Positions 693 through 33,891 of a DNA stretch of 64,000 nucleotides are shown here, piece by piece; position 1 is the first letter of the stretch, and each line of letters starts with the position of its first letter. The notes under the pieces are model-generated. The model ran no database searches. It was given only the letters and a program-made list of their open reading frames with translations, and was not told where the DNA came from. The position numbers were made by a program, and so were the translations under genes. Source of the stretch: a virus; IMG/VR virus record IMGVR_UViG_3300002144_000620, positions 62,001 to 126,000 of that record. One strand, 5' to 3'.

Positions 693-1181
693 ATGGCTAA
701 CTTATTAATGAAAATGCCTGTTCCTTACGAACCAAAGAAAAAGAACAGATTTATTTTAAGATTTCCAAGTTCACTGGGTATTAACGAGTGGTTTGTGATC
801 TCTACATCTAGACCTAAGGTTACAATAAACGAAGTAGAGATACCTTTCTTAAATACATCAACATATGTTGCTGGTAGATTTAACTGGGAAAGTATTGATG
901 TTACGTTTAAAGACCCTATTGGGCCTTCAGCTTCTCAAGCTCTAATGGAGTGGGTTCGTTTACACGCTGAGTCGGTAACAGGACGTATGGGTTATGCCGC
1001 TGGTTATAAAAAAGATATTGAACTAGAAATGTTAGATCCAACAGGTGTTGTTGTCGAGAAATGGATTCTTCAAGGAACATTCTTAACAAACGTTGATTTC
1101 GGATCGTTAGAGTACAGTGATGATGAAATTGCAGACATATCAGCTACATTGAGAATGGACCGTTGTATTCTGGTTTACTAA
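693..1181 (+). CDS. Tail tube protein (gp19-like)
   Basis: This 162-residue protein has the size and pattern of T4 gp19-type tail tube subunits, which stack as hexameric rings inside the sheath. Visible family features are the N-terminal KKKNRFILRFP, the loop around WFVISTSRPK, a central FNWESIDVTFKDPIGPSASQALMEWVR, and the C-terminal YSDDEIADISATLRMDRC. The ATG follows an A/T-rich leader without Shine-Dalgarno. It is a single gene between the noncoding repeat region and a convergent endonuclease gene, bounded by a terminator shared with it. The candidate late motif at 651 would drive it. No truncation is seen. Confidence 0.92.
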   Translation: MANLLMKMPVPYEPKKKNRFILRFPSSLGINEWFVISTSRPKVTINEVEIPFLNTSTYVAGRFNWESIDVTFKDPIGPSASQALMEWVRLHAESVTGRMGYAAGYKKDIELEMLDPTGVVVEKWILQGTFLTNVDFGSLEYSDDEIADISATLRMDRCILVY

Positions 1182-1760: not shown

Positions 1761-2519
1761 ATGGACGATTCACAACAAATTTACTTTGAGCCAGCACATG
1801 ATGTTATCTCACTACCTTCGGGAGGTATGTTTTACAAGAACAAAAAAGATTCTGTTAAAGTTGCATACATGACAGCTTCAGATGAAAACATTTTAACTTC
1901 ACCAAACTTATTACAGAGTGGTAAAGTATTAGACGTACTACTAGAAAAGAAAATTCTAGATAAAGATATAAAAGCTGGTGACTTACTTCCAGGTGATAGA
2001 AACGCTATTATCTTCTTCTTAAGAGCCACTGGTTACGGTGAAATGTATCCAGTTGAGTTGACAGATCCTAAGACAGGCGATAGCTTTATCGAAGATATTG
2101 ATATTAGTCAGTTACCAACTAAAGAGGTTTCTTTAATTCCAGATGAAAACGGTGAGTGTTCATTTGTTTTACCTAAATCGGGTAAAACTGTAAAGTTTAA
2201 ATACTTAACTTCTTCAGAGGATGAAAAACTAATTAAGGATGATCAAATTAGAACTAAGAAATTAGGTTCGAACGCTATTAATCAGGTTATGACACTTAGG
2301 TTACAGAACCAAATTACTGAAGTTGATGGTATTAGGGATAAAACAGCTATTATGCAGTTCGTTGATTCTATGTCACCAATGGATTCATCAAAATTCAGGC
2401 AATACTTAACCGAAAACGAACCAGGTTTAGATTTAACCATTAACGTACAAGCTCCAAGTGGAGAGTTTTTTTTTGGTGAACTTCCGATTACAGCAAAATT
2501 TCTTTGGCCTTACGTCTGA
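1761..2519 (+). CDS. gp26-family baseplate/tail-assembly protein
   Basis: A 252-residue protein of the T4 gp26-type baseplate family. Diagnostic features are LPSGGMFY (residues 18-25), the acidic TASDENIL stretch, DVLLEKKI, and LPGDRNAIIFFLRATGYGEMYPVEL around 78-101. The C-terminus LPITAKFLWP resembles the end of T4-group relatives, so this frame looks complete. In T4 this family takes part in hub assembly. Here the gene lies between tube and tape-measure genes, the position of tail-assembly chaperones in other phages. Codons 236-238 are TTT-TTT-TTT (2466-2474), and a second frame overlaps from there, suggesting a G/GT-like frameshift pair. The chaperone role is inferred from context. Confidence 0.75.
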   Translation: MDDSQQIYFEPAHDVISLPSGGMFYKNKKDSVKVAYMTASDENILTSPNLLQSGKVLDVLLEKKILDKDIKAGDLLPGDRNAIIFFLRATGYGEMYPVELTDPKTGDSFIEDIDISQLPTKEVSLIPDENGECSFVLPKSGKTVKFKYLTSSEDEKLIKDDQIRTKKLGSNAINQVMTLRLQNQITEVDGIRDKTAIMQFVDSMSPMDSSKFRQYLTENEPGLDLTINVQAPSGEFFFGELPITAKFLWPYV

Positions 2520-3535: not shown

Positions 3536-6184
3536 ATGGTACAAGGTAACTTTGCATCTAAATTTCAAAAAGCTATCGATACTTACGATTCGTTAGTTAA
3601 ATCTGGTCAAATTAGTAACCAGACTAAGATATATAGTTTACAAAGTTCAATTAATAGTGCTGCCGAATATGCTTTAAACAAAAAAGAATCTTATCAATTA
3701 GACCTAAAAAATGAAACTATAGGTCAGTGGAGTAGAAGGGTATTTAATGAAAAAGCGGAGGAGGATAAAGTTAAATCAAATTTTAAACGTGACCAAAAAA
3801 TATTAACTAAACAAATTAACGATTACAAGAAAAAAGAGTTAAAAGCTCAAAAGTCTAATAATAAGAGTCAAGAAAAATTAATAAAGGAAAGAAGGACCCA
3901 ATTAGAGACCACTAAAAAAATGAAAGAAGCTGAATCAGAGGCTTTCAGTGCAACATCTAAAATAGCTGGTAAGGGTGGTGGTAATCCTTACATTGCTGCT
4001 ATATTAGTTGTTAGTGGTGCTATATTAAGCGCAGCAAAAAGTATTTTAGGTACTGCTGTGGGTTTACTAAAAAAATTAATACCGAAAAACTTTGATTTTT
4101 TGGCACCGTACAAATGGTTTTTAAAATTTCAAACCTTATCGGGTGATATATCGGTTAACGCTGGTTTAATAGCATCAGAATCAGCTAATTTTTTAGACAA
4201 CCTACCTATGATGATGCAGGATGTACTAGACGTTGGTGGTACATTAGAAGATATTAATAAAGTATTTAAAAAATTTAGTGAAGTAACTAATAAAAACAGG
4301 TTATTCACAAGTAAGGAGTATAAAGGTATATTAAATTTAGGTTTAGGTACATCACTTGGAGCTGAAGGTGCTGCTGATTTCGTTGGTAACTTTGAGAATA
4401 TGGGTTATTCAGTTGATAAAACATTAGAATTCACTGAATATGTTAGAGGTAAAGCAATGAGTATAAACCTTAACCAATCTAACATACTTAATAAGATTAA
4501 CCAATTAACCCTATCCTTAACAGGTTTTGGTATATCTATGGGTCTTAAAGGTATGGCTAAACTAGTAACAAAATCCGTTAAATTAAGATTTGATGTTGTT
4601 GGTTCGGTAAAAGCTTTTCAAGATGCATTTAAAGATCCAGAAGTAGCTGTTGAGGTTGCAGCCAAAGCTAAACTACTTGGTGGTAAATTCGCTTTTTATT
4701 TTGGTGACCCTTTTACTTTAATGGGTAAAAGTATATTAGAACCAGAAGAACTAACCGCTGATTTAATTGAAGCTTTAAAAGATAAAGCCTTTAAAGGTAA
4801 AAACGGTTTTGAAATCGCACCAGCTGATCGTGAAATGATTAGAGAGTTATCTAAAGCATTGGGTCAAGACCCTGAAAACATAATCACATTAGCTATCGAA
4901 CAAGGTAAGGATTTGGATAAAGTTAACGCACTTAGAAAACGAGGTATATTCGAGACTAATATGGATGAAGATAAAGCTGAGTTATTAAAAAATCTAATGA
5001 CATTAAACGAAGACGGTTCTTACAGTATACGATTATCAAATGGTGTTACACAAAGATTATCTGAGATACCTAGTAATGTAACTATATTTAAAACGTTACA
5101 ACAAGAGAGAAAAAATAACGAATCTGCACTATTAAGAAAATCGTTAGCTGAAAGAATAGGTATTGTTATCGATAGGTTTATGATTGGGTTTTCACAGGTA
5201 TTTGTTGAATTAAATAAATATTTCAGAGATTTTGATACCATAACAAATCTAGATAACACCGTTAAATCCATAAGCGATGGTATGGGTAAATTTTTAACAG
5301 ATAAATTTGATAGCGATTGGGGTGATATACTAAAAAATGGTTTAAAAACAGCTAACTTAATGATAGATAACCTATTATTAGTTTGGAACGACCCCAATAA
5401 AGGACTACCAGTTATTTTAGCCGATTCAATGGATATTATAAAAGATGCTTTAATGAAATATATGATCAAACCGTTAGAATTTTATAGCGGTAAACTAGTG
5501 TACGGAATAGGTAAAGGGCTTGATAAAAAAACTTTTGGTCTTTTCGGTAAAAGCATAATGCAATCTGGTTTAAATATGCAAAAAAGCGGTTTAGAGGGTT
5601 CTAGTACTACTTTTTATGAAAATAATGAAAATGGGTTAAGAACTCGTATCGACAATTACAACAAAAATTATGCTAATAATGATATATCATCAAACCTAAC
5701 AACTACGATAAGTAAACGAATACTTAAAAAAATACCTTTTATTGGGGCGGTTATAGGTACCGTGGAGGCGCTTGGTTACGTACTAGAAGGTAATTACGGT
5801 CAAGCTGGAATGGCGTTTGGGTCAGGTGTCTTAAGTACCGTACCAGGTCTTGGTACAGCCGCAAGTATTGGTCTTGACGCTATTAATATGGGTATTGATT
5901 CCCAAAAAGATTATAAGGTTCAGAATATCGAGAAAGCTAATGATTTAATTTACCATAGTAGCGGTTCGATAGAAAAAGGTGCCAAAGGGGACGCTAAATC
6001 ATATATAGATGAACTTGCTGGGGGTAAATCAAATAGTTACAGTAAAGCAAATAGTTTTAATCTGGTATTATCTGGTAAGATTATTAATAAATATAGAGAA
6101 GGTTTTTATGATAAAAACACTCATAATACTACCATAACTTCTTCTAAAATGGTATTAAAACAAATGATAGCTAATTTAGCTTAA
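3536..6184 (+). CDS. Tape-measure-like tail protein A
   Basis: An 882-residue protein starting MVQGNF. It has a charged helical N-terminal part (about 60-140, Lys/Glu-rich, coiled-coil-like), a hydrophobic segment NPYIAAILVVSGAILSAA near 150-170 followed by VGLLKKLIP, then a long mixed helical body. It is a divergent paralogue of the gene at 8276: both share M(V/A)QG(N/D)F, LK(N/S)ETIG, KNRLF, FGDPF, DRFxIG and a C-terminal GSIEKGAKGDAKSYIDE / KGSKGDAIAFIDE block. Position after tube and chaperone-like genes, size and membrane-like segments support a tape-measure role: setting tail length and perhaps entering the membrane on ejection. Family not certain. Its last ~95 codons are duplicated at 7925-8212. 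Confidence 0.7.
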   Translation: MVQGNFASKFQKAIDTYDSLVKSGQISNQTKIYSLQSSINSAAEYALNKKESYQLDLKNETIGQWSRRVFNEKAEEDKVKSNFKRDQKILTKQINDYKKKELKAQKSNNKSQEKLIKERRTQLETTKKMKEAESEAFSATSKIAGKGGGNPYIAAILVVSGAILSAAKSILGTAVGLLKKLIPKNFDFLAPYKWFLKFQTLSGDISVNAGLIASESANFLDNLPMMMQDVLDVGGTLEDINKVFKKFSEVTNKNRLFTSKEYKGILNLGLGTSLGAEGAADFVGNFENMGYSVDKTLEFTEYVRGKAMSINLNQSNILNKINQLTLSLTGFGISMGLKGMAKLVTKSVKLRFDVVGSVKAFQDAFKDPEVAVEVAAKAKLLGGKFAFYFGDPFTLMGKSILEPEELTADLIEALKDKAFKGKNGFEIAPADREMIRELSKALGQDPENIITLAIEQGKDLDKVNALRKRGIFETNMDEDKAELLKNLMTLNEDGSYSIRLSNGVTQRLSEIPSNVTIFKTLQQERKNNESALLRKSLAERIGIVIDRFMIGFSQVFVELNKYFRDFDTITNLDNTVKSISDGMGKFLTDKFDSDWGDILKNGLKTANLMIDNLLLVWNDPNKGLPVILADSMDIIKDALMKYMIKPLEFYSGKLVYGIGKGLDKKTFGLFGKSIMQSGLNMQKSGLEGSSTTFYENNENGLRTRIDNYNKNYANNDISSNLTTTISKRILKKIPFIGAVIGTVEALGYVLEGNYGQAGMAFGSGVLSTVPGLGTAASIGLDAINMGIDSQKDYKVQNIEKANDLIYHSSGSIEKGAKGDAKSYIDELAGGKSNSYSKANSFNLVLSGKIINKYREGFYDKNTHNTTITSSKMVLKQMIANLA

Positions 6185-7922
6185 TAATGAATATAAAAAC
6201 AATTTCTTTTGTATTTATAGTTAAGGAATATATAGTAAATTTAATATATGGCACAAGGTGATTTTTTTAGTGATTTAAGTAATGCGGCTGATAAGTTAAA
6301 TCAAGCTGCTAAAGACGGTGTGATCAATAACTCAACCCAAGAGCAACAGATGGAACGTATGTTAGAAATGTACGAAGCTATAAACGCTAAAAAAGCCGCT
6401 GGATTCAAATGGGATTTAAAATCAGAAACAATTGGTGCTAACATCAGACGCTGGGGTAAAGGAATGGTTGATGACGCCAACAAGCTAAAAAAAGCTAAAA
6501 AGGGTTTAGTGATACAACAAAAAAGTATTAATAAACTTAATGATCTTGAGCTTAAATTAATAAAAGAGGGTAAAAAAGAAACTGCTGAGTTAGTAAAAAA
6601 GAAGAAAGAACAAGCTGTATTAGAAAAAGAAATATCTCAAGTTAATCTTAATGTTGCCAAAAGTGCTAGTAGTAAACTAGGTAGCGTTATGGCTGGCTTT
6701 AGTAACTTCGGTAAAAGCGCTATGAACCTTTTTAGTCCACTAAGTGGTATTTTTAGTTTTATATTAGGTACGGTTTTCTCAATAGGTAAATCACTATTCA
6801 ACATATTATTACCAATAGAAAAAGCATGGAAAATGTTTCTCGAAATGCAGAAAGCTGTTGGAGGCCTATCTGCTGATATTGGTTTAACCAATAAAGAGTA
6901 CATGGGTCTATTAAGTAGAATGCCTATGTTATATAGCGATATTGCTGGATATGGTGGTAAAATAGAAGATATAGCAACTATTATCGGTACTTTTAGTAAA
7001 AATACTGGTAAAAACCGATTATTCTCAAACGAAGAAATTGAAGGTATTGTTAAATTAGGTTATAGTACTGGACTAGGCGTTGATGGTGTAACCGAAATGG
7101 TTGGTGAATTTGATAACTTAGGTTATTCATTAGAACAAACAATGAAAACAGCTGACAAGGGTAGAAAACTTGCCGCTAAATTCAGTATTAATCAAACTAA
7201 GTTACTCAAAACAACAACAGATGTTGTTAAAAATTTAACAGGAACAGCCTTTGGTAGAAGTGTTGAAGATTTAACTAAATTATCAGCTAAAGCACAATCA
7301 TTAAGGTTTAATTTAGCTGAGTCAATTAAATCTTTTAAAGATTCGTTCTTTAGCCCAGAAAAAGCTATTGAGGCGGCAGCTAAAATACAGGTACTAGGTG
7401 GTGAAATGGCGCAACAATTTGGGGACCCTTTCTCATTAATGTATGATTCAATGAATAACGCTGATGGCATGGCCGAGAAATTGATTAATAGTGCTAAAAA
7501 TTTGGCTACAAAAAATAAAAACAATGAATTTATAATACCACCAGCACAAAGACAAATATTAAGAGAACAAGCTGAAGCCTTAGGTCAAAATTATGATGAG
7601 ATTGTTAATGCTGGTATAGAGCAAGCTAGAACAGCCGATAAGTTAATATCGTTAAGTAAAGCATCTGGTTCATTAACCAATTTTAATGATGATGACCAAC
7701 AAGCGTTAGCTAATCTAATGACATTAGGTAAAAACGGTTACGAGATTAAAATGCCTAACGGTATTAGTAAATTAGTTAGTACCATAACCAGCGAAGATCA
7801 ATTAAAAAACATATTATCAGCTAGACAAGCTAATGAAAATGCAGCGCAAGAAAGACTAAACTTATCTGAAAGATTCAGTATTGTATTGGATAGATTCGCA
7901 ATAGGTTTAACACCCTTATTCG
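5895..7922 (+). repeat. Tandem duplication, copy 1 (2,028 bp)
   Basis: It spans the last ~96 codons of tape-measure A, the 63-bp gap with its TATTTATA motif, and the first ~558 codons of the tape-measure C reading frame. It is followed head-to-tail by copy 2 at a constant 2,028-bp offset. I saw nine differences, eight of them in the first 250 bp. Confidence 0.95.
6212..6219 (+). promoter_or_regulatory. TATTTATA motif before chimeric tape-measure gene
   Basis: It lies in the 63-bp gap after tape-measure A, 28 nt before the ATG, and is part of the duplicated segment. Confidence 0.5.
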
Positions 7923-8212
7923 TTGATTCCCAAAAAGATTATAAAGTTCAGAATATCGAGAAAGCTAATGATTTAATTTACCATAGTAGCGGTTCTATAG
8001 AAAAAGGCGCTAAAGGGGACGCTAAATCATATATAGATGAACTTGCTGGGGGTAAATCAAATAGTTACAGTAAAGCAAATAGTTTTAATCTAGTATTATC
8101 TGGTAAGATTATTAATAAATATAGAGAAGGTTTTTATGATAAAAACACTCACAATACCACCATAACTTCGTCTAAAATGGTATTAAAACAAATGATAGCT
8201 AATTTAGCTTAA
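6248..8212 (+). CDS. Chimeric tape-measure-like protein B (N-part of C fused to C-terminus of A)
   Basis: A 654-residue intact frame. Residues 1-559 equal the N-terminus of the protein at 8276, including the charged coiled-coil-like region, the hydrophobic segment (about 150-190) and the body up to DRFAIGLTPLFV. Residues 560-654 equal the last 95 residues of the protein at 3536. It therefore lacks the C-specific part (residues 560-933 of C). It arose at the junction of a 2,028-bp tandem duplication. The frame is open and has its own TATTTATA and leader, so it may be expressed as a shorter variant. A transient duplication or an assembly artefact from mixed strains remains possible. Confidence 0.75.
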   Translation: MAQGDFFSDLSNAADKLNQAAKDGVINNSTQEQQMERMLEMYEAINAKKAAGFKWDLKSETIGANIRRWGKGMVDDANKLKKAKKGLVIQQKSINKLNDLELKLIKEGKKETAELVKKKKEQAVLEKEISQVNLNVAKSASSKLGSVMAGFSNFGKSAMNLFSPLSGIFSFILGTVFSIGKSLFNILLPIEKAWKMFLEMQKAVGGLSADIGLTNKEYMGLLSRMPMLYSDIAGYGGKIEDIATIIGTFSKNTGKNRLFSNEEIEGIVKLGYSTGLGVDGVTEMVGEFDNLGYSLEQTMKTADKGRKLAAKFSINQTKLLKTTTDVVKNLTGTAFGRSVEDLTKLSAKAQSLRFNLAESIKSFKDSFFSPEKAIEAAAKIQVLGGEMAQQFGDPFSLMYDSMNNADGMAEKLINSAKNLATKNKNNEFIIPPAQRQILREQAEALGQNYDEIVNAGIEQARTADKLISLSKASGSLTNFNDDDQQALANLMTLGKNGYEIKMPNGISKLVSTITSEDQLKNILSARQANENAAQERLNLSERFSIVLDRFAIGLTPLFVDSQKDYKVQNIEKANDLIYHSSGSIEKGAKGDAKSYIDELAGGKSNSYSKANSFNLVLSGKIINKYREGFYDKNTHNTTITSSKMVLKQMIANLA

Positions 8213-9950
8213 TAATGAATATAAAAACAATTTCTTTTGTATTTATAGTTAAGGAATATATAGTAAATTTAATATATGGCACAAGGTGATTTTTTTAGTG
8301 ATTTAAGTAATGCGGCTGATAAGTTAAATCAAGCTGCTAAAGACGGTGTGATCAATAACTCAACCCAAGAGCAACAGATGGAACGTATGTTAGAAATGTA
8401 CGAAGCTATAAACGCTAAAAAAGCCGCTGGATTCAAATGGGATTTAAAATCAGAAACAATTGGTGCTAACATCAGACGCTGGGGTAAAGGAATGGTTGAT
8501 GACGCCAACAAGCTAAAAAAAGCTAAAAAGGGTTTAGTGATACAACAAAAAAGTATTAATAAACTTAATGATCTTGAGCTTAAATTAATAAAAGAGGGTA
8601 AAAAAGAAACTGCTGAGTTAGTAAAAAAGAAGAAAGAACAAGCTGTATTAGAAAAAGAAATATCTCAAGTTAATCTTAATGTTGCCAAAAGTGCTAGTAG
8701 TAAACTAGGTAGCGTTATGGCTGGCTTTAGTAACTTCGGTAAAAGCGCTATGAACCTTTTTAGTCCACTAAGTGGTATTTTTAGTTTTATATTAGGTACG
8801 GTTTTCTCAATAGGTAAATCACTATTCAACATATTATTACCAATAGAAAAAGCATGGAAAATGTTTCTCGAAATGCAGAAAGCTGTTGGAGGCCTATCTG
8901 CTGATATTGGTTTAACCAATAAAGAGTACATGGGTCTATTAAGTAGAATGCCTATGTTATATAGCGATATTGCTGGATATGGTGGTAAAATAGAAGATAT
9001 AGCAACTATTATCGGTACTTTTAGTAAAAATACTGGTAAAAACCGATTATTCTCAAACGAAGAAATTGAAGGTATTGTTAAATTAGGTTATAGTACTGGA
9101 CTAGGTGTTGATGGTGTAACCGAAATGGTTGGTGAATTTGATAACTTAGGTTATTCATTAGAACAAACAATGAAAACAGCTGACAAGGGTAGAAAACTTG
9201 CCGCTAAATTCAGTATTAATCAAACTAAGTTACTCAAAACAACAACAGATGTTGTTAAAAATTTAACAGGAACAGCCTTTGGTAGAAGTGTTGAAGATTT
9301 AACTAAATTATCAGCTAAAGCACAATCATTAAGGTTTAATTTAGCTGAGTCAATTAAATCTTTTAAAGATTCGTTCTTTAGCCCAGAAAAAGCTATTGAG
9401 GCGGCAGCTAAAATACAGGTACTAGGTGGTGAAATGGCGCAACAATTTGGGGACCCTTTCTCATTAATGTATGATTCAATGAATAACGCTGATGGCATGG
9501 CCGAGAAATTGATTAATAGTGCTAAAAATTTGGCTACAAAAAATAAAAACAATGAATTTATAATACCACCAGCACAAAGACAAATATTAAGAGAACAAGC
9601 TGAAGCCTTAGGTCAAAATTATGATGAGATTGTTAATGCTGGTATAGAGCAAGCTAGAACAGCCGATAAGTTAATATCGTTAAGTAAAGCATCTGGTTCA
9701 TTAACCAATTTTAATGATGATGACCAACAAGCGTTAGCTAATCTAATGACATTAGGTAAAAACGGTTACGAGATTAAAATGCCTAACGGTATTAGTAAAT
9801 TAGTTAGTACCATAACCAGCGAAGATCAATTAAAAAACATATTATCAGCTAGACAAGCTAATGAAAATGCAGCGCAAGAAAGACTAAACTTATCTGAAAG
9901 ATTCAGTATTGTATTGGATAGATTCGCAATAGGTTTAACACCCTTATTCG
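7923..9950 (+). repeat. Tandem duplication, copy 2 (2,028 bp)
   Basis: Second copy. The boundary with copy 1 shows 2-bp microhomology (TT at 5895-5896, 7923-7924 and 9951-9952). Its length is divisible by three, so the junction is in frame and makes a chimeric gene. Confidence 0.95.
8240..8247 (+). promoter_or_regulatory. TATTTATA motif before tape-measure C
   Basis: Duplicate of the site at 6212, again 28 nt before the ATG. Confidence 0.5.
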
Positions 9951-11108: not shown

Positions 11109-14100
11109 ATGAGTCTTAATAGTATTTCAGAAGAATTCAGAAATGAAATTCTAAATTTAAACTTACAGTCACCACCTGACATTGTAACTGGTTTAGTTAA
11201 CTTAACTAATTCGGTAACAATTAATGCATACCTAAGTTCTTTAGGTCAATACGCTGTTATACACGATTATAAAGTACTTAATCCAGGTGATGTTGATACT
11301 GATGGTATACCAACAAGAAACGCTAATTTCAGTAGAACATTAAACACGCCAACTGATATATCAAATGGTTTAAGTGATTTAACCTCTAACCAGCAATATG
11401 TTGCTAATATAGTTAATAGTAAGGGTCAATTAACTGTTATAAATGATTACGCAAACACTAATCCTAGTGATGTTTTAACAGAAGCTGTAACACCTAGAAC
11501 AACCGATATATTAAAAAACTTAAATACACCAATAGATATTACAACAGGTCTAAATGACTTATCACCAAATGCCGCTATAGCGTCACAGTATTTATCTGGT
11601 AGAGGTTCGTTTAGTATTATAAACGATTTTAACGTAATTAATCCTGGTGACGTATTAACAGACGCTATAGCACCAAGAAATTTAGATATAGCAAAAAACT
11701 TAAACACACCAATAGATATCACAACAGGTATAAATGATTTATCACCAAATGGCACTATAGCATCACAATATTTATCAGGTAGAGGCTCATTTAGTATTAT
11801 AAACGATTTTAACGTAATTAATCCTGGTGATGTATTAACAGACGCTATAGCACCAAGAACATTAGATTTCTCTAGAAACCTAAATACACCAACAGACATA
11901 ACAGCTGGTGTAAACGATTTAACACCAAACACATTACTAGCGGCCCAATATTTATCAGGCAGAGGTTCATTTAGTGTTATAAACGATTTTATTGTTAATA
12001 ACCCTGGAGATGTATTAACAGACGCTGTAACACCAAGAACTTTAAACTTCTTACAAACACTTAATACACCTACCGATATAACAACAGGTGTAAATACACT
12101 AAGCGGTGCTTATGCCGCCCAATACTTATCTGGAAAAGGAGCGTTCACTGCTATAAACACATTTCCAAATGTTAATCCTGGTGATGTATTAACAGATGCA
12201 GTAACACCAAGAAATTTAAACTTTTCTCACGGACTAAATACACCAACCGACATCACAACAGGTATAAACACCTTAAGTGGTGCGTTTGCAGCACAATACT
12301 TATCTGGACGAGGAGCGTTTACAGTTATTAACGATTACATTAATACTAATCCAGGTGACGTTGTTAACGCAGCCACAGCACCTAGAGCATTAAACTTTTC
12401 ACATACTTTAAACACACCTTTAGATATAACAGTAGGTGTAAATACCTTAAGTGGTTCATTTGCAGCCCAATACTTATCAGGTAAAGGTTTAGGTACAGTA
12501 ATTAACGATTTCATTAATGTAAACCCTGGTGATACCGTAACGGACGCATTAGTACCCAGAACATTAAATTTAAATAAAAACCTTAATACACCTCTAGATA
12601 TCACAACAGGGTTACTTAACTTAAGTGGTTCATTTGCAGCACAATATTTAGCTGGTAGAGGTTTTGATACGATAGTAAATGATTTTAACGTAATTAATCC
12701 AGGTGATGTTGAAACAGAAGCCCTATTACCAAGAACGTTAAATTTAAGTATGACTCTAACAACACCTTTAGATATTACAACAGGTATAGGTACTTTAACA
12801 GCTAACGGTACTTTAACAGCACAATATTTAGCTGGTAGAGGTACACCAACAGTAATAAACGTTTTACCGAATGTAAATCCTGGTGATGTTCAAACTAATG
12901 CTGGACCATTGAGAATAAGTTTATTTTCTTTAAATCTGGTACCAGACCCTAATGACGCAACAGATTCATACACTTTAGCGAATCCAGGTACAGTAGCAAT
13001 CGGATCTGATACGATAATAAATAATTTTACTGTAAATAACCAAGAGGAATTAACACCTTTACAATTACAGTACTTAAATGCTAATTCTAAAAATCTATAC
13101 CAGCCAGAAAATCCAGTTGTTTACGATATATTAGCTGATTTAATATTAAATCAATCACCCAATACACAGCAAAATCCTTATGTAACTGAAGATATGTTAA
13201 AAAACGCTGACCCAACTCAATTGGTTTTAGCTGATTTCCTTAACTTACCAACAGCTTCAACACCTCTAAGCGTTTTACTCGGTACCGATTTAAATTTAGC
13301 TAATTTATTAACCGAACCTGGTATAAAAAATGATACTCTATTAGCTCAAATAGGTGCTTTAGAGCTCAAGTTTCATTTAGAAGCTAGGCTTGCCGCTAAA
13401 TTAGCTTCGGAGACCTTAGGTTGGACTACAATCGATGATATGTTAACTAACCCATTAAAGATAGCAGAAGCGCTTAAAAACCCATCTTCTGTCCTTGAAA
13501 GAGGTAATGCTGATATAACAACATTTAAAGGTGGTTTAGGTAAGTTAGCTAGTTTTATTTCTGACGTTAGCGGTTTAGGTGGTTTATCTTCCGCATTCTT
13601 TAAAGACGATTCAGTTTTATTAAAACCAACTGGAGTCGAAGATTATGATTCAGACCAAAAGTTAAGGAATAGAGATATCGATAGATTGGAAGAAACTGGT
13701 AAAGGTCAAAGATTCATGGCTTTTTCTAATTTAACGTTAAATAAATATATACCAGACTATGTCAGCCAATTAACAAACATTAGTGGTAGTAGAACATACA
13801 AAAGATTAAGAAAAGGACAAGGTGAAAACCATGAAGAAGACAAATCGTATTTAGGTAATGCCACCCAAAGAATATTCGACCTACTTACAGATGGGTCTGG
13901 TAATCAGGTTAAACCAACCGCTGAGATAACTAAACTTTTAATAGAAAATAACAAATATTCAGAACCTGGTGTTGAAAATGTATCATCATACGGATCGTTA
14001 CAAACATCTTTTATATGGCGAGGCACTACAGAAGAAAGATACTGGAACCCTTTAACAGGTGGATATACAAAAGATAACAAAAATGACGATAGAGCTACTT

Positions 14101-17100
14101 TTAAATGGAATAAAAACTTAGAACAAAGTAATCTATCAGTATCGAAAACATTCCGTGATAATTCAATAATGGGTAAAACACAAGAATTATTGAATTCTAG
14201 TGAAAACAATGTTATGTTAAGGTCAATCGATCAAACAAAAACAAAATTTAGTGATGGGTATAATTTTGCGTCAAAAGGTAGTGGTGTTATATCACCATTT
14301 AAAAAATCTAGATTAAATACAAATAACGAAGTTATTGGTTATGATTATTTAGTACCAGGGTTAGACATATCTGGTAAAAGAGATGAACAAAGAATGTACG
14401 ATGAAGTTGAACTTTGTAGAACATGGACAAAAGCTAAACCATTCTCAAAAGTAACTGATTTAATTAGATGGAAAGAATTAAATAGAAAAGAAAGAAATTC
14501 GGTATTAGATAGATATGGTAATCTAAACATACACCCATCAGCACTAAACGTAAATGAAGGTTACGGTAGACTAGGTGATGGGTTAGGCGATGCTGTTGTT
14601 GAAGGCTTCGGTGAGAAAAGAGCTAGAAAATATATGTTTTCATTAGAGAATTTAGCCTGGAGAGACGCAACACTATTTAAAGACTTACCACCATGTGAAA
14701 AAGGTTCAAATGGCGGTAGAGTTATGTGGTTCCCACCATACAACATGAGATTTACCGATGACACCAATACTAATTGGACTACACATCAATTTTTAGGTAG
14801 ACCAGAACCAATATATACTTACAATAACACCGAAAGAAGCGGCACTTTATCTTGGGATATAGTTGTCGATCACCCATCGGTATTGAATTTATTGGTATCT
14901 AAAGAATTCGCATCAATAACGGATGGAGAGGTTGATGAATTATTAGCCGCTTTCTGGTCAGGTTGTTTAGAATATGATATATTTGAATTAGCTAGAATAT
15001 GGGGTGTATTTACCGATTCAGACATCGAATACTTTAAAAAAGTTATAGCTGACCTAGATATTAGATTACCTAACGAAAAAGTTAGGAATGCAGTTAAGAG
15101 CAGCGGTTCGTTTAAAAGTAAAACTGTTCAAATAGAATCAAACGAAACTATTCAACCGTTTATACCAGATTTTAACCTTTTCTTTGAAAACGATACACCT
15201 CTACCAAAGAGTGGTTATAAAACTACCGATGATTTTAAGGTAGAACCTTTTAACACTTATTTCGAAACATATAGAAAGTTAGCTAGTATGGAAGATGAAA
15301 ATGCCCCTATAGCAAAAGAAAATCATAGATACAAAAGAGCTGAAGCGAGAGGTGAATCTGTTCCTGTAGAAGCTAAATGGATTAGATATGATCAAACTAT
15401 AGGTACTAAGAGTAATACGGATCAACATTATTTCTTCGAAAAAGATAGAGAAAAGTTTATTTCAAAAGCATTTGGTTATGATGAACAATACGAAAAGATT
15501 CAAACTGATATATCAAATCTAACAGCATCAACATACGCTGCTGTTAAAGACTATAATCTTTCGGTAATCATGGAGGCTCACGCATCCCCAACAGCACCAG
15601 GACCAACAACAACAGCGATTCAAGAGTACAATGATAAACTAGCCTCTAGAAGATTCGTATCTGTTGTAAAATGGTTGGTTTTAAATGTTTTATCTAACAA
15701 TTCTAACAGTACAATTAAATGCTATAACATAACTGATGGTGCTGAAATAACAGAATCAAATATTAATAAGTTATTTAATGATGACCTAGAATTATCAAGT
15801 AACGTTGAGATACAAAGAGGTGATATCAACGAACCTAGTGTTAGACAAAAAATAACATTTACAGTAACAGCTGCCTCAGGTCTAACAACAGATGATGTAT
15901 TTGGATCAGATGAGTTTATAAATCTTTTTGGTACACCTAGTGTGGATAACGTGACAGGTGTTCAATATTACAAAGTATCTTATGGTAACGACACGTATTA
16001 CGCTGTTGCAACAAAAGACGAATTCGATAAAATAAAAGACAATTTTAAACCAAATGGTACTTTAATTGATAAGAAATTCATTGGTACATTTCTATCTGTT
16101 AGATCCAAAACGGGTGGTGGTGTAACAGGGGTTAAATTGACACAAGCTGATATTATATGTGGTAATTTATCACCACAAGCATCATATTCTAGACGTGTTT
16201 CTTTTATTACAGAGTTAGATGAAAAAGAACTTAAAATTGAAAGAACACCACCTAAAAACGAGCAACCACCTTTAATACTTGAAAGTAAAAATGTACAGAC
16301 TAACGTAACTAAAAGAGAGATAGCACAAAGAATTCTAGGTAAATTACTTACGGAATGTGATTATTTTGAATTCTTATCAGAAGAGGCACCGATTGTATAT
16401 GACAGTTTAAAACAAAAATTAAAATATTTTACACCAGCATTTCACTCAATGACACCAGAGGGTTTAAACGCTAGATTAACATTTTTACAACAATGTATGA
16501 GACCTGGTGAAACCATAACAAAAAGTAATGGTACTAGTTGTGATGCTAAAAATAGTAGTTTTGGTAGACCACCAGTTTGTGTATTAAGGATAGGTGACTT
16601 CTACCACACTAAAATTATTATTAATAACCTTAACATTAGTTACGACCCATTATTATTCGATTTAAATCCAGAAGGTATAGGTGTACAACCTATGTTAGCT
16701 AAAGTTAGTATTAATTTTAAATATATAGGTGGTCAAGGTCTTAGAAGATATGTCGATGAATTACAGACAGCTTTGTCATTTAACTATTATGCAAATACTG
16801 ACGTATACGATGAAAGAACATTTGCCAATACAGATGCTAGAGAAAGAGATTTAATAAATCTAGAACAAGATTTCTTTGCACAAAATAGTTTAGATTTAAT
16901 ACCTATTGTAAACCAAGCTGAACTCATAACACCAAGTACAGAAAACTTAGAAATACCAGTTGGTACAATAGGTGTTATAAGTACCAGACTCTTACCTAAA
17001 TTAGCTGGGGGTACTTATTATAATGATTTGGTTGGTGCAACACCATTTAGTTCTAACGTATCTTCATATAATCCAGAATCTTGTGTTACATGGCAAGGAC

Positions 17101-19880
17101 AATATTACGTTAGAAACACAACTAAAATAGTTACCGAAGGACTTAAACCAGAACCTACTGATACTAAATATTGGACAGCAATTGACCATTCAAATTTTGG
17201 TGAATTAGCATTTAGAGAAGAATATGGTAGAAACTACATACAAAGATATGAGATAAAATATGATGGTTTATTTACAGAAATGTATAAAACTTTTGGTGAA
17301 TATACTAATTTATTAGTTTACGGATCAACCAATGGTTTAGGTATAGACCCAACTGGTTTTGTCGTAACAAAATCTGATACAAAATCAGGAACAAGTATTG
17401 GTGAAAGATATAGAATAGTATCTGATATACTAAAAAATAAAAATTACAATACACTAATAACGGGTGATACAATTTCCTCTTTAATAACCAGTATAAGTGG
17501 TAATACGAATAGTACGTATGAGTCTAGCAGTATAACTGGCTTAACATATGCACAAATATTTAAGGGTGTTGCAACAACAAAGAGATATGATGAACTTGGT
17601 GAAATATTTAAAGAAAACCCATTTTTTATCGGAACAACCAAAACTAGTTTTGATCAATTCGAGGCGTTAAAACTAAATTTACACCCCCAAGAATACATGT
17701 TTAAAGTTGGTGATGGACTAGGTTTACCGTACAATTTCCAGCAAAAAAATAGTAGTTCATTGGGTGATAACGGTATGAGTACTAAATTCTTTCCAGGTAA
17801 TTTAACAAACGGATATTCGAATAATAGAGCAGATGCTTATTCTGAAACTGGTGGGGTATTCCTAAAAGGAATTAATAAATCTAGTAGAATATACCAAGGA
17901 ATAATAGATAATTTTGCTGATGAATTTAAAACAAAAATAGCGTTAAATACTTTAGCCATATGGAGTGATACATTAGAACCAACGTTAACAACATTTAATA
18001 ACTTCCATACCGATTTGGATGACGCTCATAGAATAATGTTTAAAACATACTTAAACGAAAAATTCTCTAGCTACTATTCAATGTTAACTAATTATAACAC
18101 TGAATCTAACAATGATCTTAATGATAAGATTGCTAAAATAAGTGTTATATTAGCTGGCTTATCATTACCAGCTTACGGTTATGACGCAAAATACACTGAA
18201 GATGGTAAGGCTCAGCTATACGAAATAATACCCAATGGTAAAAAGTTAACAACAGATGTTGTCAGTGGTAATATGTTTGGTTACGATCCGTATAAACAAT
18301 ACAAAAAATTAGGGTACACAGGTGGTGAGTTATTAACATTTAAAGATGTTGACAATATTTTCAAAAAATCATCATTTGGATCATGGGCATGGGGCGGCAC
18401 ACCTATGGTGGATTCCATATCTATAGAAGATTACATGTCTCTAGGTAATGGTTTGTATTTCTTTAAACAACAAACAAACACATACACAAAAGGTGATCTA
18501 GAAACAACGAATACTAACCTAGAGTATGATAGAAACATGGAATACATATCAAAAGAATTTGGTTATGAAAATATATCTGATCTACCATTCCAATATGATT
18601 TTGATAATACTTTACCTAAATCCATTCATTTATCCGTAGATAGTTCAATAACAGGGTTAACTAAAAATTACTTCTTTGACACACCATTTTCATTTAACCC
18701 AGGTGAATACGGTACAGAGACTTCATTAGAAACCAAAGCTAATAATTTAGTTATGAGATCACCACAAGGTACTATAATCAATGAAGCTGCAAATGTTTTT
18801 AATACTAATGATTATAAAATGACATATGTATGGGAAAAATTAAATTATGAAATTTTAGACTTTAGTAATAAAACTTTAGATCTAATGTTATCTGATAATT
18901 TAGAAACAGAACTAAACGATCTTGATTTTACTTATACACCGTTATATGAATTTGATACACAACTAGATGAGTTAATTATTAGTGGTTCAATAAGTGGTAC
19001 AACAACAGGTACAACAACAGGTACAACAACAGGTACAACAACAAATATTGGTAATACATTATTTTACTATGGTGACAATAAAAAACCTAACGATAATATA
19101 AAAACATTAAATTATTATTTATTTAACGAAAGCAACCCTAACATTACTGGTACCGATTTAGTAATTACATTATCAAACCTAAATAACGCTTTAGCTTATA
19201 ATTACACAATAAACGATTCGTTTATATCAGCATTACCGACAAGTAATAAAAATAAAATATATTTAGATATCGTTGGCTCAGTTAACCCTAGTTTAATTAA
19301 AATGTCAGGTATGTGTGAATTAATATTTTTAGAATTTTTACATGAATTAAGTCAAAATAAATCACTACATATTGAATCTTTAGATAAAATCTTTAGTGAA
19401 TCAATAGCTGTACCAGCTAATATAAAAAGTGACGATAAGAAAAACAAAGCCTATAGAGATAAAAAGAAAAAGAAAATTAAAAAAGTATTGGTTGATACGT
19501 TTAATTTAATTGATAAACTCATTAACTCATATAGTTCAGATGTATTAGATTTGTACATCTATAATAATGATGTTAAAGACAATACGGCTAAAAATATTAA
19601 TAAAAATGTTTTTGGTAACGAATCTACCACACTATTATCTACAAAAGAGATACAGGATAATTTAATTAAGGGTAGTGTTGACGACTACACATTAGTTATG
19701 AGAGAAACTAGTAAATTAGATGATACAATAATTAAAAACCTAAAAATCTTTACAAAGTATAAAAATAACCCTATTATTAATATAGGGACAGCATTAGAAC
19801 CTATAACTGAGCCTAAACCAACGACAACAAAGTTGGCACAACAATACAAAGAGGTTTATGGTTTAGAACCAAATAAATAA
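11109..19880 (+). CDS. Giant baseplate/central tail protein with N-terminal repeats, tube-initiator-like and OmpA-like segments
   Basis: 2,923 residues. (i) Ten tandem ~59-residue repeats (21-612), each with TPxDITxG, AAQYLSGRG and NPGDVLTDA. (ii) Around 1180-1270 WFPPYNMRF, LGRPEPIYTY and LSWDIVVDHPSVLNLL, and around 1734-1877 RPPVCVLRIGDFYHTKIIINNL plus VSINFKYIGG, both like tube-fold proteins that start or cap contractile tails. (iii) Around 1478-1530 an OmpA-like stretch: IMEAHASP, then YNDKLASRRFVSVVKWL. (iv) A carbohydrate-binding-like segment near 1986-2022. (v) A (GTTT)4 linker near 2630. (vi) A Lys-rich patch near 2775-2795. It heads the hub cluster and is followed 8 bp later by a LysM protein. 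Hub/tube-initiator role is inferred; other parts unrecognised. Confidence 0.65.
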   Translation: MSLNSISEEFRNEILNLNLQSPPDIVTGLVNLTNSVTINAYLSSLGQYAVIHDYKVLNPGDVDTDGIPTRNANFSRTLNTPTDISNGLSDLTSNQQYVANIVNSKGQLTVINDYANTNPSDVLTEAVTPRTTDILKNLNTPIDITTGLNDLSPNAAIASQYLSGRGSFSIINDFNVINPGDVLTDAIAPRNLDIAKNLNTPIDITTGINDLSPNGTIASQYLSGRGSFSIINDFNVINPGDVLTDAIAPRTLDFSRNLNTPTDITAGVNDLTPNTLLAAQYLSGRGSFSVINDFIVNNPGDVLTDAVTPRTLNFLQTLNTPTDITTGVNTLSGAYAAQYLSGKGAFTAINTFPNVNPGDVLTDAVTPRNLNFSHGLNTPTDITTGINTLSGAFAAQYLSGRGAFTVINDYINTNPGDVVNAATAPRALNFSHTLNTPLDITVGVNTLSGSFAAQYLSGKGLGTVINDFINVNPGDTVTDALVPRTLNLNKNLNTPLDITTGLLNLSGSFAAQYLAGRGFDTIVNDFNVINPGDVETEALLPRTLNLSMTLTTPLDITTGIGTLTANGTLTAQYLAGRGTPTVINVLPNVNPGDVQTNAGPLRISLFSLNLVPDPNDATDSYTLANPGTVAIGSDTIINNFTVNNQEELTPLQLQYLNANSKNLYQPENPVVYDILADLILNQSPNTQQNPYVTEDMLKNADPTQLVLADFLNLPTASTPLSVLLGTDLNLANLLTEPGIKNDTLLAQIGALELKFHLEARLAAKLASETLGWTTIDDMLTNPLKIAEALKNPSSVLERGNADITTFKGGLGKLASFISDVSGLGGLSSAFFKDDSVLLKPTGVEDYDSDQKLRNRDIDRLEETGKGQRFMAFSNLTLNKYIPDYVSQLTNISGSRTYKRLRKGQGENHEEDKSYLGNATQRIFDLLTDGSGNQVKPTAEITKLLIENNKYSEPGVENVSSYGSLQTSFIWRGTTEERYWNPLTGGYTKDNKNDDRATFKWNKNLEQSNLSVSKTFRDNSIMGKTQELLNSSENNVMLRSIDQTKTKFSDGYNFASKGSGVISPFKKSRLNTNNEVIGYDYLVPGLDISGKRDEQRMYDEVELCRTWTKAKPFSKVTDLIRWKELNRKERNSVLDRYGNLNIHPSALNVNEGYGRLGDGLGDAVVEGFGEKRARKYMFSLENLAWRDATLFKDLPPCEKGSNGGRVMWFPPYNMRFTDDTNTNWTTHQFLGRPEPIYTYNNTERSGTLSWDIVVDHPSVLNLLVSKEFASITDGEVDELLAAFWSGCLEYDIFELARIWGVFTDSDIEYFKKVIADLDIRLPNEKVRNAVKSSGSFKSKTVQIESNETIQPFIPDFNLFFENDTPLPKSGYKTTDDFKVEPFNTYFETYRKLASMEDENAPIAKENHRYKRAEARGESVPVEAKWIRYDQTIGTKSNTDQHYFFEKDREKFISKAFGYDEQYEKIQTDISNLTASTYAAVKDYNLSVIMEAHASPTAPGPTTTAIQEYNDKLASRRFVSVVKWLVLNVLSNNSNSTIKCYNITDGAEITESNINKLFNDDLELSSNVEIQRGDINEPSVRQKITFTVTAASGLTTDDVFGSDEFINLFGTPSVDNVTGVQYYKVSYGNDTYYAVATKDEFDKIKDNFKPNGTLIDKKFIGTFLSVRSKTGGGVTGVKLTQADIICGNLSPQASYSRRVSFITELDEKELKIERTPPKNEQPPLILESKNVQTNVTKREIAQRILGKLLTECDYFEFLSEEAPIVYDSLKQKLKYFTPAFHSMTPEGLNARLTFLQQCMRPGETITKSNGTSCDAKNSSFGRPPVCVLRIGDFYHTKIIINNLNISYDPLLFDLNPEGIGVQPMLAKVSINFKYIGGQGLRRYVDELQTALSFNYYANTDVYDERTFANTDARERDLINLEQDFFAQNSLDLIPIVNQAELITPSTENLEIPVGTIGVISTRLLPKLAGGTYYNDLVGATPFSSNVSSYNPESCVTWQGQYYVRNTTKIVTEGLKPEPTDTKYWTAIDHSNFGELAFREEYGRNYIQRYEIKYDGLFTEMYKTFGEYTNLLVYGSTNGLGIDPTGFVVTKSDTKSGTSIGERYRIVSDILKNKNYNTLITGDTISSLITSISGNTNSTYESSSITGLTYAQIFKGVATTKRYDELGEIFKENPFFIGTTKTSFDQFEALKLNLHPQEYMFKVGDGLGLPYNFQQKNSSSLGDNGMSTKFFPGNLTNGYSNNRADAYSETGGVFLKGINKSSRIYQGIIDNFADEFKTKIALNTLAIWSDTLEPTLTTFNNFHTDLDDAHRIMFKTYLNEKFSSYYSMLTNYNTESNNDLNDKIAKISVILAGLSLPAYGYDAKYTEDGKAQLYEIIPNGKKLTTDVVSGNMFGYDPYKQYKKLGYTGGELLTFKDVDNIFKKSSFGSWAWGGTPMVDSISIEDYMSLGNGLYFFKQQTNTYTKGDLETTNTNLEYDRNMEYISKEFGYENISDLPFQYDFDNTLPKSIHLSVDSSITGLTKNYFFDTPFSFNPGEYGTETSLETKANNLVMRSPQGTIINEAANVFNTNDYKMTYVWEKLNYEILDFSNKTLDLMLSDNLETELNDLDFTYTPLYEFDTQLDELIISGSISGTTTGTTTGTTTGTTTNIGNTLFYYGDNKKPNDNIKTLNYYLFNESNPNITGTDLVITLSNLNNALAYNYTINDSFISALPTSNKNKIYLDIVGSVNPSLIKMSGMCELIFLEFLHELSQNKSLHIESLDKIFSESIAVPANIKSDDKKNKAYRDKKKKKIKKVLVDTFNLIDKLINSYSSDVLDLYIYNNDVKDNTAKNINKNVFGNESTTLLSTKEIQDNLIKGSVDDYTLVMRETSKLDDTIIKNLKIFTKYKNNPIINIGTALEPITEPKPTTTKLAQQYKEVYGLEPNK
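11169..12945 (+). repeat. Ten tandem ~180-bp coding repeats
   Basis: Ten units of 58-60 codons. Units 3 and 4 (about 11526-11885) are almost identical in protein and very similar in DNA; the outer units are more diverged. Consensus words are TPTDITTG, QYLSGRG, INDF and NPGDVLTDA. Confidence 0.9.
18996..19043 (+). repeat. 12-bp minisatellite, four units
   Basis: GGTACAACAACA occurs four times without mismatch and encodes a Gly-Thr-Thr-Thr linker. Copy number can change in frame. Confidence 0.9.
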
Positions 19881-19888
19881 AAATATAT

Positions 19889-20212
19889 ATGCCTTTAAAT
19901 TATTTTAACAGATACAGAACATTAGATACTGAGGAAAAACATTCGTCAGCACCTTTTGTAAAATTAACGGAAAAATCATCTGATCAATTCACTGTATATA
20001 CAATAGGCAAATCTAGATTAGATAAAATAAGTCAACAATATTACTCAGCACCATATTATGGGTGGTTAATTTTAATGGCCAATCCAGATATCGCACCATC
20101 AGAATGGGAGATACCTGATAATACAACGATAAGAATACCTTTTCCTTTATCTGAAACATTAGGTGAGTACGAAACGAAATTACAAAATAGGGTAGATTAT
20201 TATGGCAATTAA
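19889..20212 (+). CDS. LysM-like baseplate protein (gp53-like)
   Basis: A 107-residue protein. The core RLDKISQQYYSAPYYGWLILMANP, then WEIPDNTTIRIPFP, is a LysM-type fold as found in T4 gp53 and phage tail X-like proteins: a helix with a conserved YY/W pair, the Asn before Pro, and a final IRIP strand. These proteins sit in the baseplate and help the wedge and hub assemble; some LysM domains contact peptidoglycan. The gene starts 8 bp after the giant hub protein and overlaps the next ATG by 11 bp, so translation is probably coupled. Family call good; exact T4 counterpart inferred. Confidence 0.75.
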   Translation: MPLNYFNRYRTLDTEEKHSSAPFVKLTEKSSDQFTVYTIGKSRLDKISQQYYSAPYYGWLILMANPDIAPSEWEIPDNTTIRIPFPLSETLGEYETKLQNRVDYYGN

Positions 20213-32889: not shown

Positions 32890-33891
32890 ATGGCAGTAAA
32901 GAAAAAAGAATTCTCATTCGATGACATGAGAAATAAATATAGTTCATCAACAACATACAAACCAGACGAATTCTTAAACTGCGGTAATGCGTTTTTAGAA
33001 ATGACTGGCGTACAAGGACCAGCAACTGGCCACATTAACATGTTCTTAGGTCACTCTGACACGGGTAAAACAACTGCGCTAATTTTAGCGGCTATTGCTG
33101 CACAAAAGAGAGGTGCCGTACCAGTATTCTTAGTCACTGAAAAGAAATGGGATTTCAGTCACGCTAAACTAATGGGTTTAGATTGTGAACAAGATCCATC
33201 AACAGGTGAATGGGTAGGTCGATTTTTTTATCGTGACGATTTCTTCTATATTGAACAAATTACAGACTATATCAATAAATTACTAGATGATCAAGCTAAA
33301 GGTGATATTCCATTTGATTTAGTATTCTTCTGGGATTCTGTTGGTTCAGTACCATGTAAAATGACTTTTGATGGTAAAGGTGGTAAACAACATACAGCTG
33401 GTGTATTAGCAGAAAAAATTGGTATGGGTATTAACCAAAGAATTAATAGCACCAGAAAAGACACGTCAGAGTATACAAATACTATGGTAGTAATTAACCA
33501 ACCTTGGGTTGAATTACCAGACAACCCGTTTGGACAACCTAGAATTAAAGCTAAAGGTGGTGACGCATTTTGGTTAAACTCAACAATGATATTCTTATTT
33601 GGTAATCAGAAAAACGCTGGTACTGGTAAAATAGATGCAACTAAAAATGGTCGTAAGGTTAAGTTTGCAACAAGAACCAAAATTAGTGTAATGAAAAACC
33701 ACGTAAACGGTTTAGGTTATGGTGATGGTAAGATAATAGCAACACCACATGGTTTCATATTAGACACTAAAGAAGCTATAGACCAATATAAAAAGGATTA
33801 TTCTGACTACTGGGTTGATACTTTAGGAGCTACGGATTTTGATTTAGATGAAGAAGAAACAAAATCTGGTGTAGACTATGAAGATCAATAA
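32890..33891 (+). CDS. uvsX: UvsX-like RecA-family recombinase
   Basis: 333 residues. Walker A is GHSDTGKT (54-61), Walker B is in DLVFFWDSVGS (about 142-152), and a conserved NQPW follows in VVINQPWVELP, with the loop region FGQPRIKAKGGDAFWLNS. This is the phage UvsX group of RecA/Rad51 ATPases, which form filaments on single-stranded DNA and drive strand exchange and recombination-dependent replication; gp32-like SSB next door is its partner. The C-terminus is acidic (DLDEEETKSG). The gene overlaps the next by 14 bp. No separate promoter is visible after the hairpin upstream, so it may rely on read-through. Confidence 0.9.
   Translation: MAVKKKEFSFDDMRNKYSSSTTYKPDEFLNCGNAFLEMTGVQGPATGHINMFLGHSDTGKTTALILAAIAAQKRGAVPVFLVTEKKWDFSHAKLMGLDCEQDPSTGEWVGRFFYRDDFFYIEQITDYINKLLDDQAKGDIPFDLVFFWDSVGSVPCKMTFDGKGGKQHTAGVLAEKIGMGINQRINSTRKDTSEYTNTMVVINQPWVELPDNPFGQPRIKAKGGDAFWLNSTMIFLFGNQKNAGTGKIDATKNGRKVKFATRTKISVMKNHVNGLGYGDGKIIATPHGFILDTKEAIDQYKKDYSDYWVDTLGATDFDLDEEETKSGVDYEDQ

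Follow-up and report, generated by a model that had tools for sequence, protein, structure and literature searches.

The tail locus and its relatives

The window analysed here is a stretch of 64,000 nt, taken from 62001-126000 of the viral record of an uncultured phage, 153,961 bases long in all, and all the coordinates given below refer to it unless a contig is named (Table 1). Three tape-measure-like genes, named here A, B and C, follow the tail tube and baseplate hub genes and precede a gene coding for a protein of 2923 aa, named D (11109-19880), and a baseplate wedge gene. The same phage encodes a UvsX-like recombinase, as well as a head protein, a DNA polymerase and an SbcC-like subunit that are all T4-like; it is a T4-like phage and, in the explanation that we prefer, contractile-tailed.

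Table 1. Coordinates of the features of the tail locus and of the repeat within the window
Feature	Position	Strand	Details
Tail tube gene	693-1181		upstream of A
Baseplate hub gene	1761-2519		upstream of A
Gene A, tape-measure-like paralogue, 882 aa	3536-6184	+	ORF; its C-terminal module (788-882) is the donor to B
Repeat copy 1	5895-7922	+	A end (5895-6184), then the 63-base spacer and bases 1-1675 of the B/C frame
Eight synonymous differences between copies	5917-6142	+	5917, 5968, 5980, 5983, 6064, 6124, 6130, 6142
Spacer/leader before B	6185-6247	+	identical to the pre-C spacer 8213-8275; AAGGA upstream of ATG
Gene B, chimera, 654 aa	6248-8212	+	C residues 1-559 and A residues 788-882; ORF, alignment
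Joint	7913-7932	+	...TTATTCG/TTGATTCCC..., 2-base TT overlap; protein LTPLFV-DSQKD
Repeat copy 2	7923-9950	+	A end, here closing B (7923-8212), then the 63-base spacer and bases 1-1675 of C
Gene C, tape-measure-like paralogue, 933 aa	8276-11077	+	ORF; Foldseek matches to tape-measure proteins
Baseplate wedge gene	19889-20212		downstream of C
UvsX-like recombinase gene	32890-33891

The 3' end of the record lies inside an exact 27-base tandem repeat and, since the record ends in such a short exact repeat, we suspected a short-read assembly; the record as a whole suggests a short-read assembly of a circular map. Both its ends (L018:1-1730 and L023:7260-8961) run off within open, plus-strand ORFs with collagen-like (Gly-X-Y) repeats, and these two ORFs are probably one tail-fibre-like gene that was cut when a circular map was assembled. 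Other features of the neighbourhood were observed in passing. A small minus-strand ORF (1245-1646) between the tail tube and hub genes looks, by eye, like an endonuclease of the very short patch repair type (Vsr-like) or of the homing type. The N-terminal part of protein D (residues about 70-550) consists of approximately 8 tandem repeats of 58-60 residues each, and the alignments of D to some relatives start at residue 70, which suggests one repeat unit fewer there. Gene D is in two ORFs in L026:11185-19149 and in L036:11184-18990 and intact in L025 and L027; these four are apparently the same virus, and the splits, at different places, would be due to sequencing error or strain variation.

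The earlier note on this DNA had regarded these genes as tape measures, and this assignment proved reasonable. The best named Foldseek matches are tape-measure proteins (E 3e-14 for C and 1e-12 for B), obtained from models of low confidence (pLDDT 56-58) and with low TM-scores. Tape-measure PHROGs are matched by a few members of the family, with E-values from 2e-5 to 4e-5; in the outgroup L048, the single homologous gene has a match to PHROG 167, annotated as 'tail length tape measure protein' (E 2.6e-6). The position of the locus also agrees with the assignment, directly behind the tail tube and hub genes and ahead of the baseplate wedge gene, in an order that the relatives share. Searches of the window proteins against PHROG, Pfam and NCBIfam gave no match to a tape-measure family, and a sequence search of solved structures gave none with tape-measure similarity. 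By homology, A, B and C are likely to belong to the tape-measure proteins.

A and C can be aligned from end to end; their core is conserved and their C-terminal modules are related. Among the relatives, 19 contigs cover the locus (several of them near-copies of one another), and in all 19 A and C are directly adjacent and B is absent; 17 have complete A and C genes and two have A followed by the start of C. The order of genes in the relatives is always tail tube, hub, X, A, C and D. The C orthologues are 50-69% identical, and all the A and C orthologues of the clade are 851-948 aa in length. A single gene separates hub and D in six more distant loci (L041, L042, L043, L044, L046 and L048). In a maximum-likelihood tree rooted at its midpoint, A, C and the single gene of the distant phages form one group each in 98-100% of the bootstrap trees (100/100 for the A clade). 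If the single-gene state is taken as ancestral, the A/C pair would be an old duplication at this same locus. The duplication that made B is derived, since the relatives all have A and C without B. A whole uncultured T4-like clade (L003-L040) carries two adjacent tape-measure-like paralogues and its distant relatives (L041-L049) carry one; within one phage A and C are of similar length, and a two-component ruler is possible in the A/C clade.

When protein A alone was used as a query no relatives were found, and its orthologues were obtained from the positions beside C. No match to C was given by tblastn against the phage collection; for A, the same search gave short matches limited to a glycine-rich hydrophobic stretch. 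In the genome contigs searched there was no relative. The glycine-rich hydrophobic segment of A (residues 724-783, about 5705-5884) ends shortly before the duplicated piece. It has matches to phage proteins that are otherwise unrelated and carry the annotation endolysin or peptidase, as well as to hypothetical proteins of phages X1, ACP17 and S-WAM2, and is possibly a membrane-inserting element.

The repeat, its joint and the chimeric gene B

The earlier note had described a tandem duplication of 2,028 bases with a TT-only microhomology at its joint and an in-frame fusion giving an intact 654-residue chimera with its own leader. All of this was confirmed. Base-by-base comparison at an offset of 2028 shows two head-to-tail, ungapped copies with 9 mismatches in 2028 bases, and blastn aligns them over 2030 columns with 99.557% identity and 0 gaps; hence, there are indeed two copies, with the correction that they are not identical. 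Outside the borders of the repeat, matching is at chance level apart from the TT. Among the compared pieces of the record this is the sole near-identical long repeat.

The sequence at 7922/7923 is ...CCCTTATTCG followed by TTGATTCCC..., in which the A-side and the C-side have TT alone in common, and there are no Ns at the joint. In T4-type short-homology duplications the copies stand head to tail and the short homology is present once at the joint, which is also the arrangement here; in T4, tandem duplications form at homologies of 2-10 bp (PMC9391042), so that the 2-base overlap is at the low end of the reported range, and an overlap of this size is also common by chance. The length of the repeat is a multiple of three (3 x 676), for which the chance is 1 in 3. 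An exact search found the joint sequence in no other viral contig, and neither the normal C context nor the normal A context had exact matches in viral contigs; therefore the viral contigs searched, which may lack near records, revealed no record of this virus independent of the present one.

The ORF of B is open throughout and is preceded by the same leader as C, so that B would be translatable. It has no amino-acid differences from C over residues 1-559. The joint within B is non-homologous, as C residue 559 aligns with A at about 553 and yet is followed in B by A 788; for this reason we discarded homologous recombination of A with C as the origin of the joint. B retains both conserved end modules, namely the N-terminal part with a hydrophobic stretch (159-190) and the C-terminal module, and is without the middle and without the second hydrophobic segment of A. 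Judged from its sequence, it is laid out like a tape measure that has been shortened; taking 0.15 nm for each residue, the predicted tail would be about 98 nm for B versus 132-140 nm for A and C.

Differences between the two copies

The 9 differences are unevenly distributed. Precisely, 8 fall in the 3' end of A, and the remaining approximately 1.78 kb has one, at 7078, which leaves exact identical runs of 935 and 846 bases; in the stretch 7079-7922 the copies are identical right up to the joint. Under an even spread, the probability of at least 8 of 9 differences within 290 of the 2028 bases is 1.4e-6, and the excess in the A end is also found per synonymous site (Fisher P = 8e-7). All 9 are at third codon positions, and the 8 of the A end, when checked, were all synonymous. 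We tried to polarise these 8 sites with the relatives, and the comparison was uninformative, the amino acid being shared at few sites.

This pattern is not that of a plain duplication followed by mutation, because mutation would scatter the differences. Two A-end alleles of co-circulating strains appear to have met in the record, through either phage recombination or strain mixing in assembly. Both alleles seem to come from functional lineages, since the changes are all at third positions and leave the protein unaltered.

Origin of the joint

We consider it fairly probable that a real tandem duplication lies behind the joint at 7922/7923, and that at least a fraction of the sampled phage population carries it. 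By illegitimate recombination, codon 559 of C on one genome copy would have been joined to codon 788 in the end of A on another, at 2 shared bases, and the crossover would have duplicated 2,028 bases and created B, which has from C the leader and the N-terminal 60% and from A the C-terminal module. In favour of a real duplication we counted the repeat itself with its joint and its open frame, the UvsX-like recombinase and the T4-like genes, the precedent of T4 and the relatives having A and C without B; against it we counted the end of the record in a 27-base repeat and the absence of the joint from other viral contigs.

The main competing explanation, to which we give a smaller but appreciable weight, is a product of assembly, in which the A-end alleles of two strains were threaded into one contig, the stretch shared by them was written twice and no phage carries B; the joint would then come from a chimeric read, from an artefact of amplification or from a false path in the graph. 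Differences confined to the A end, with a single one in the remainder, are what a shared path collapsed and then written twice would give, the ends of the contig in short repeats suggest short reads, and B is in no other contig. If the assembly was indeed from short reads, pairs of ordinary insert size could not have placed the identical stretches of 935 and 846 bases, and the assembler would have chosen the path. However, neither overlap merging nor scaffolding explains a joint with a 2-base overlap and no Ns: its junction k-mers would derive from real molecules or from chimeric reads, and not from strain mixing alone. Moreover, the difference at 7078 argues against a single collapsed path written twice, being unexpected unless both sides of a bubble were used, the joint is in frame, and no second duplication of this type is present among the compared pieces of the record. 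Strain mixing, which the earlier note had proposed as the main alternative, is thus a live contributor in view of the allele pattern, but alone it cannot make the joint.

A selected function of B is improbable in our judgement. According to this explanation, B is a short tape measure that gives tails of two lengths or takes part in a hetero-oligomeric ruler; a third, shortened gene, derived from the fusion of two paralogous rulers, would then be a step in a repeated duplication of the ruler, from one gene in the distant relatives to A and C and then to A, B and C. B does keep the hydrophobic stretch within its N-terminal region, and also the C-terminal module that is homologous in A and C. In TP901-1, the tape measure needs for infection no more than its first 154 and last 60 residues together with the first hydrophobic region, and tail length follows the length of the protein (PMC5099701). 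The synonymous-only differences also mean that the end of B is unbroken, but two A alleles explain them equally well. Furthermore, the second hydrophobic segment of A is missing, the C part of B is without any sign of independent evolution, and in the clade, where the A and C orthologues all lie within 851-948 aa, no relative has B. A second tail length deriving from B is therefore unlikely. The explanation that we find hardest to credit is an old duplication whose copies were kept alike by gene conversion, with the A ends escaping from it: the phage does have a recombinase and one end of the repeat did diverge, but the identity of the other end up to the joint argues against a general escape of the repeat ends, and B was retained in no relative.

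Returning to a real and recent duplication, B is probably a young and transient by-product, because tandem copies get lost by recombination and no relative has B. The earlier interpretation as a whole is partly supported: the reading as a duplication caught early needs a qualification, because the A ends differ at 8 synonymous sites whereas the remainder of the copies is almost the same. Provided that the joint is real, the locus is a natural snapshot of a tail-ruler gene duplicating and fusing, at the very place where the whole clade has two genes fixed from an earlier duplication; it would allow one to test whether a single tail can be shared by two different rulers, and how the length of tails evolves. 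Should the joint be a product of assembly, it is a warning about recent gene duplications called from metagenomic contigs.

Comparison with known systems

For a T4-like phage, tandem duplications at short homologies are events of a known kind, and in the literature searched we found no description of two paralogous tape measures fused in frame next to both of their parents. The segmental amplifications of T4 (dmd-tifA, genes 16-18/Hp17 and rII) are likewise head-to-tail, at very short homologies and in a phage with a UvsX-type recombinase (PMC9391042). In contrast to them, there are here two copies, in an environmental contig, involving a tail gene and with no known selection, and the joint creates an in-frame fusion gene between copies that differ in their alleles. 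The engineered length variants of TP901-1 resemble B in the internal loss with both end modules kept, and they assemble shorter tails (PMC5099701), whereas B, a putative ruler, is a natural fusion of paralogues beside intact A and C, in a phage with a contractile T4-like tail. Finally, tape-measure genes naturally gain and lose internal repeat units (PMC3271669) and are, as here, tape-measure genes changing by duplication; in that case short units change within one gene, whereas in our case the duplication covers 2 kb across two genes.
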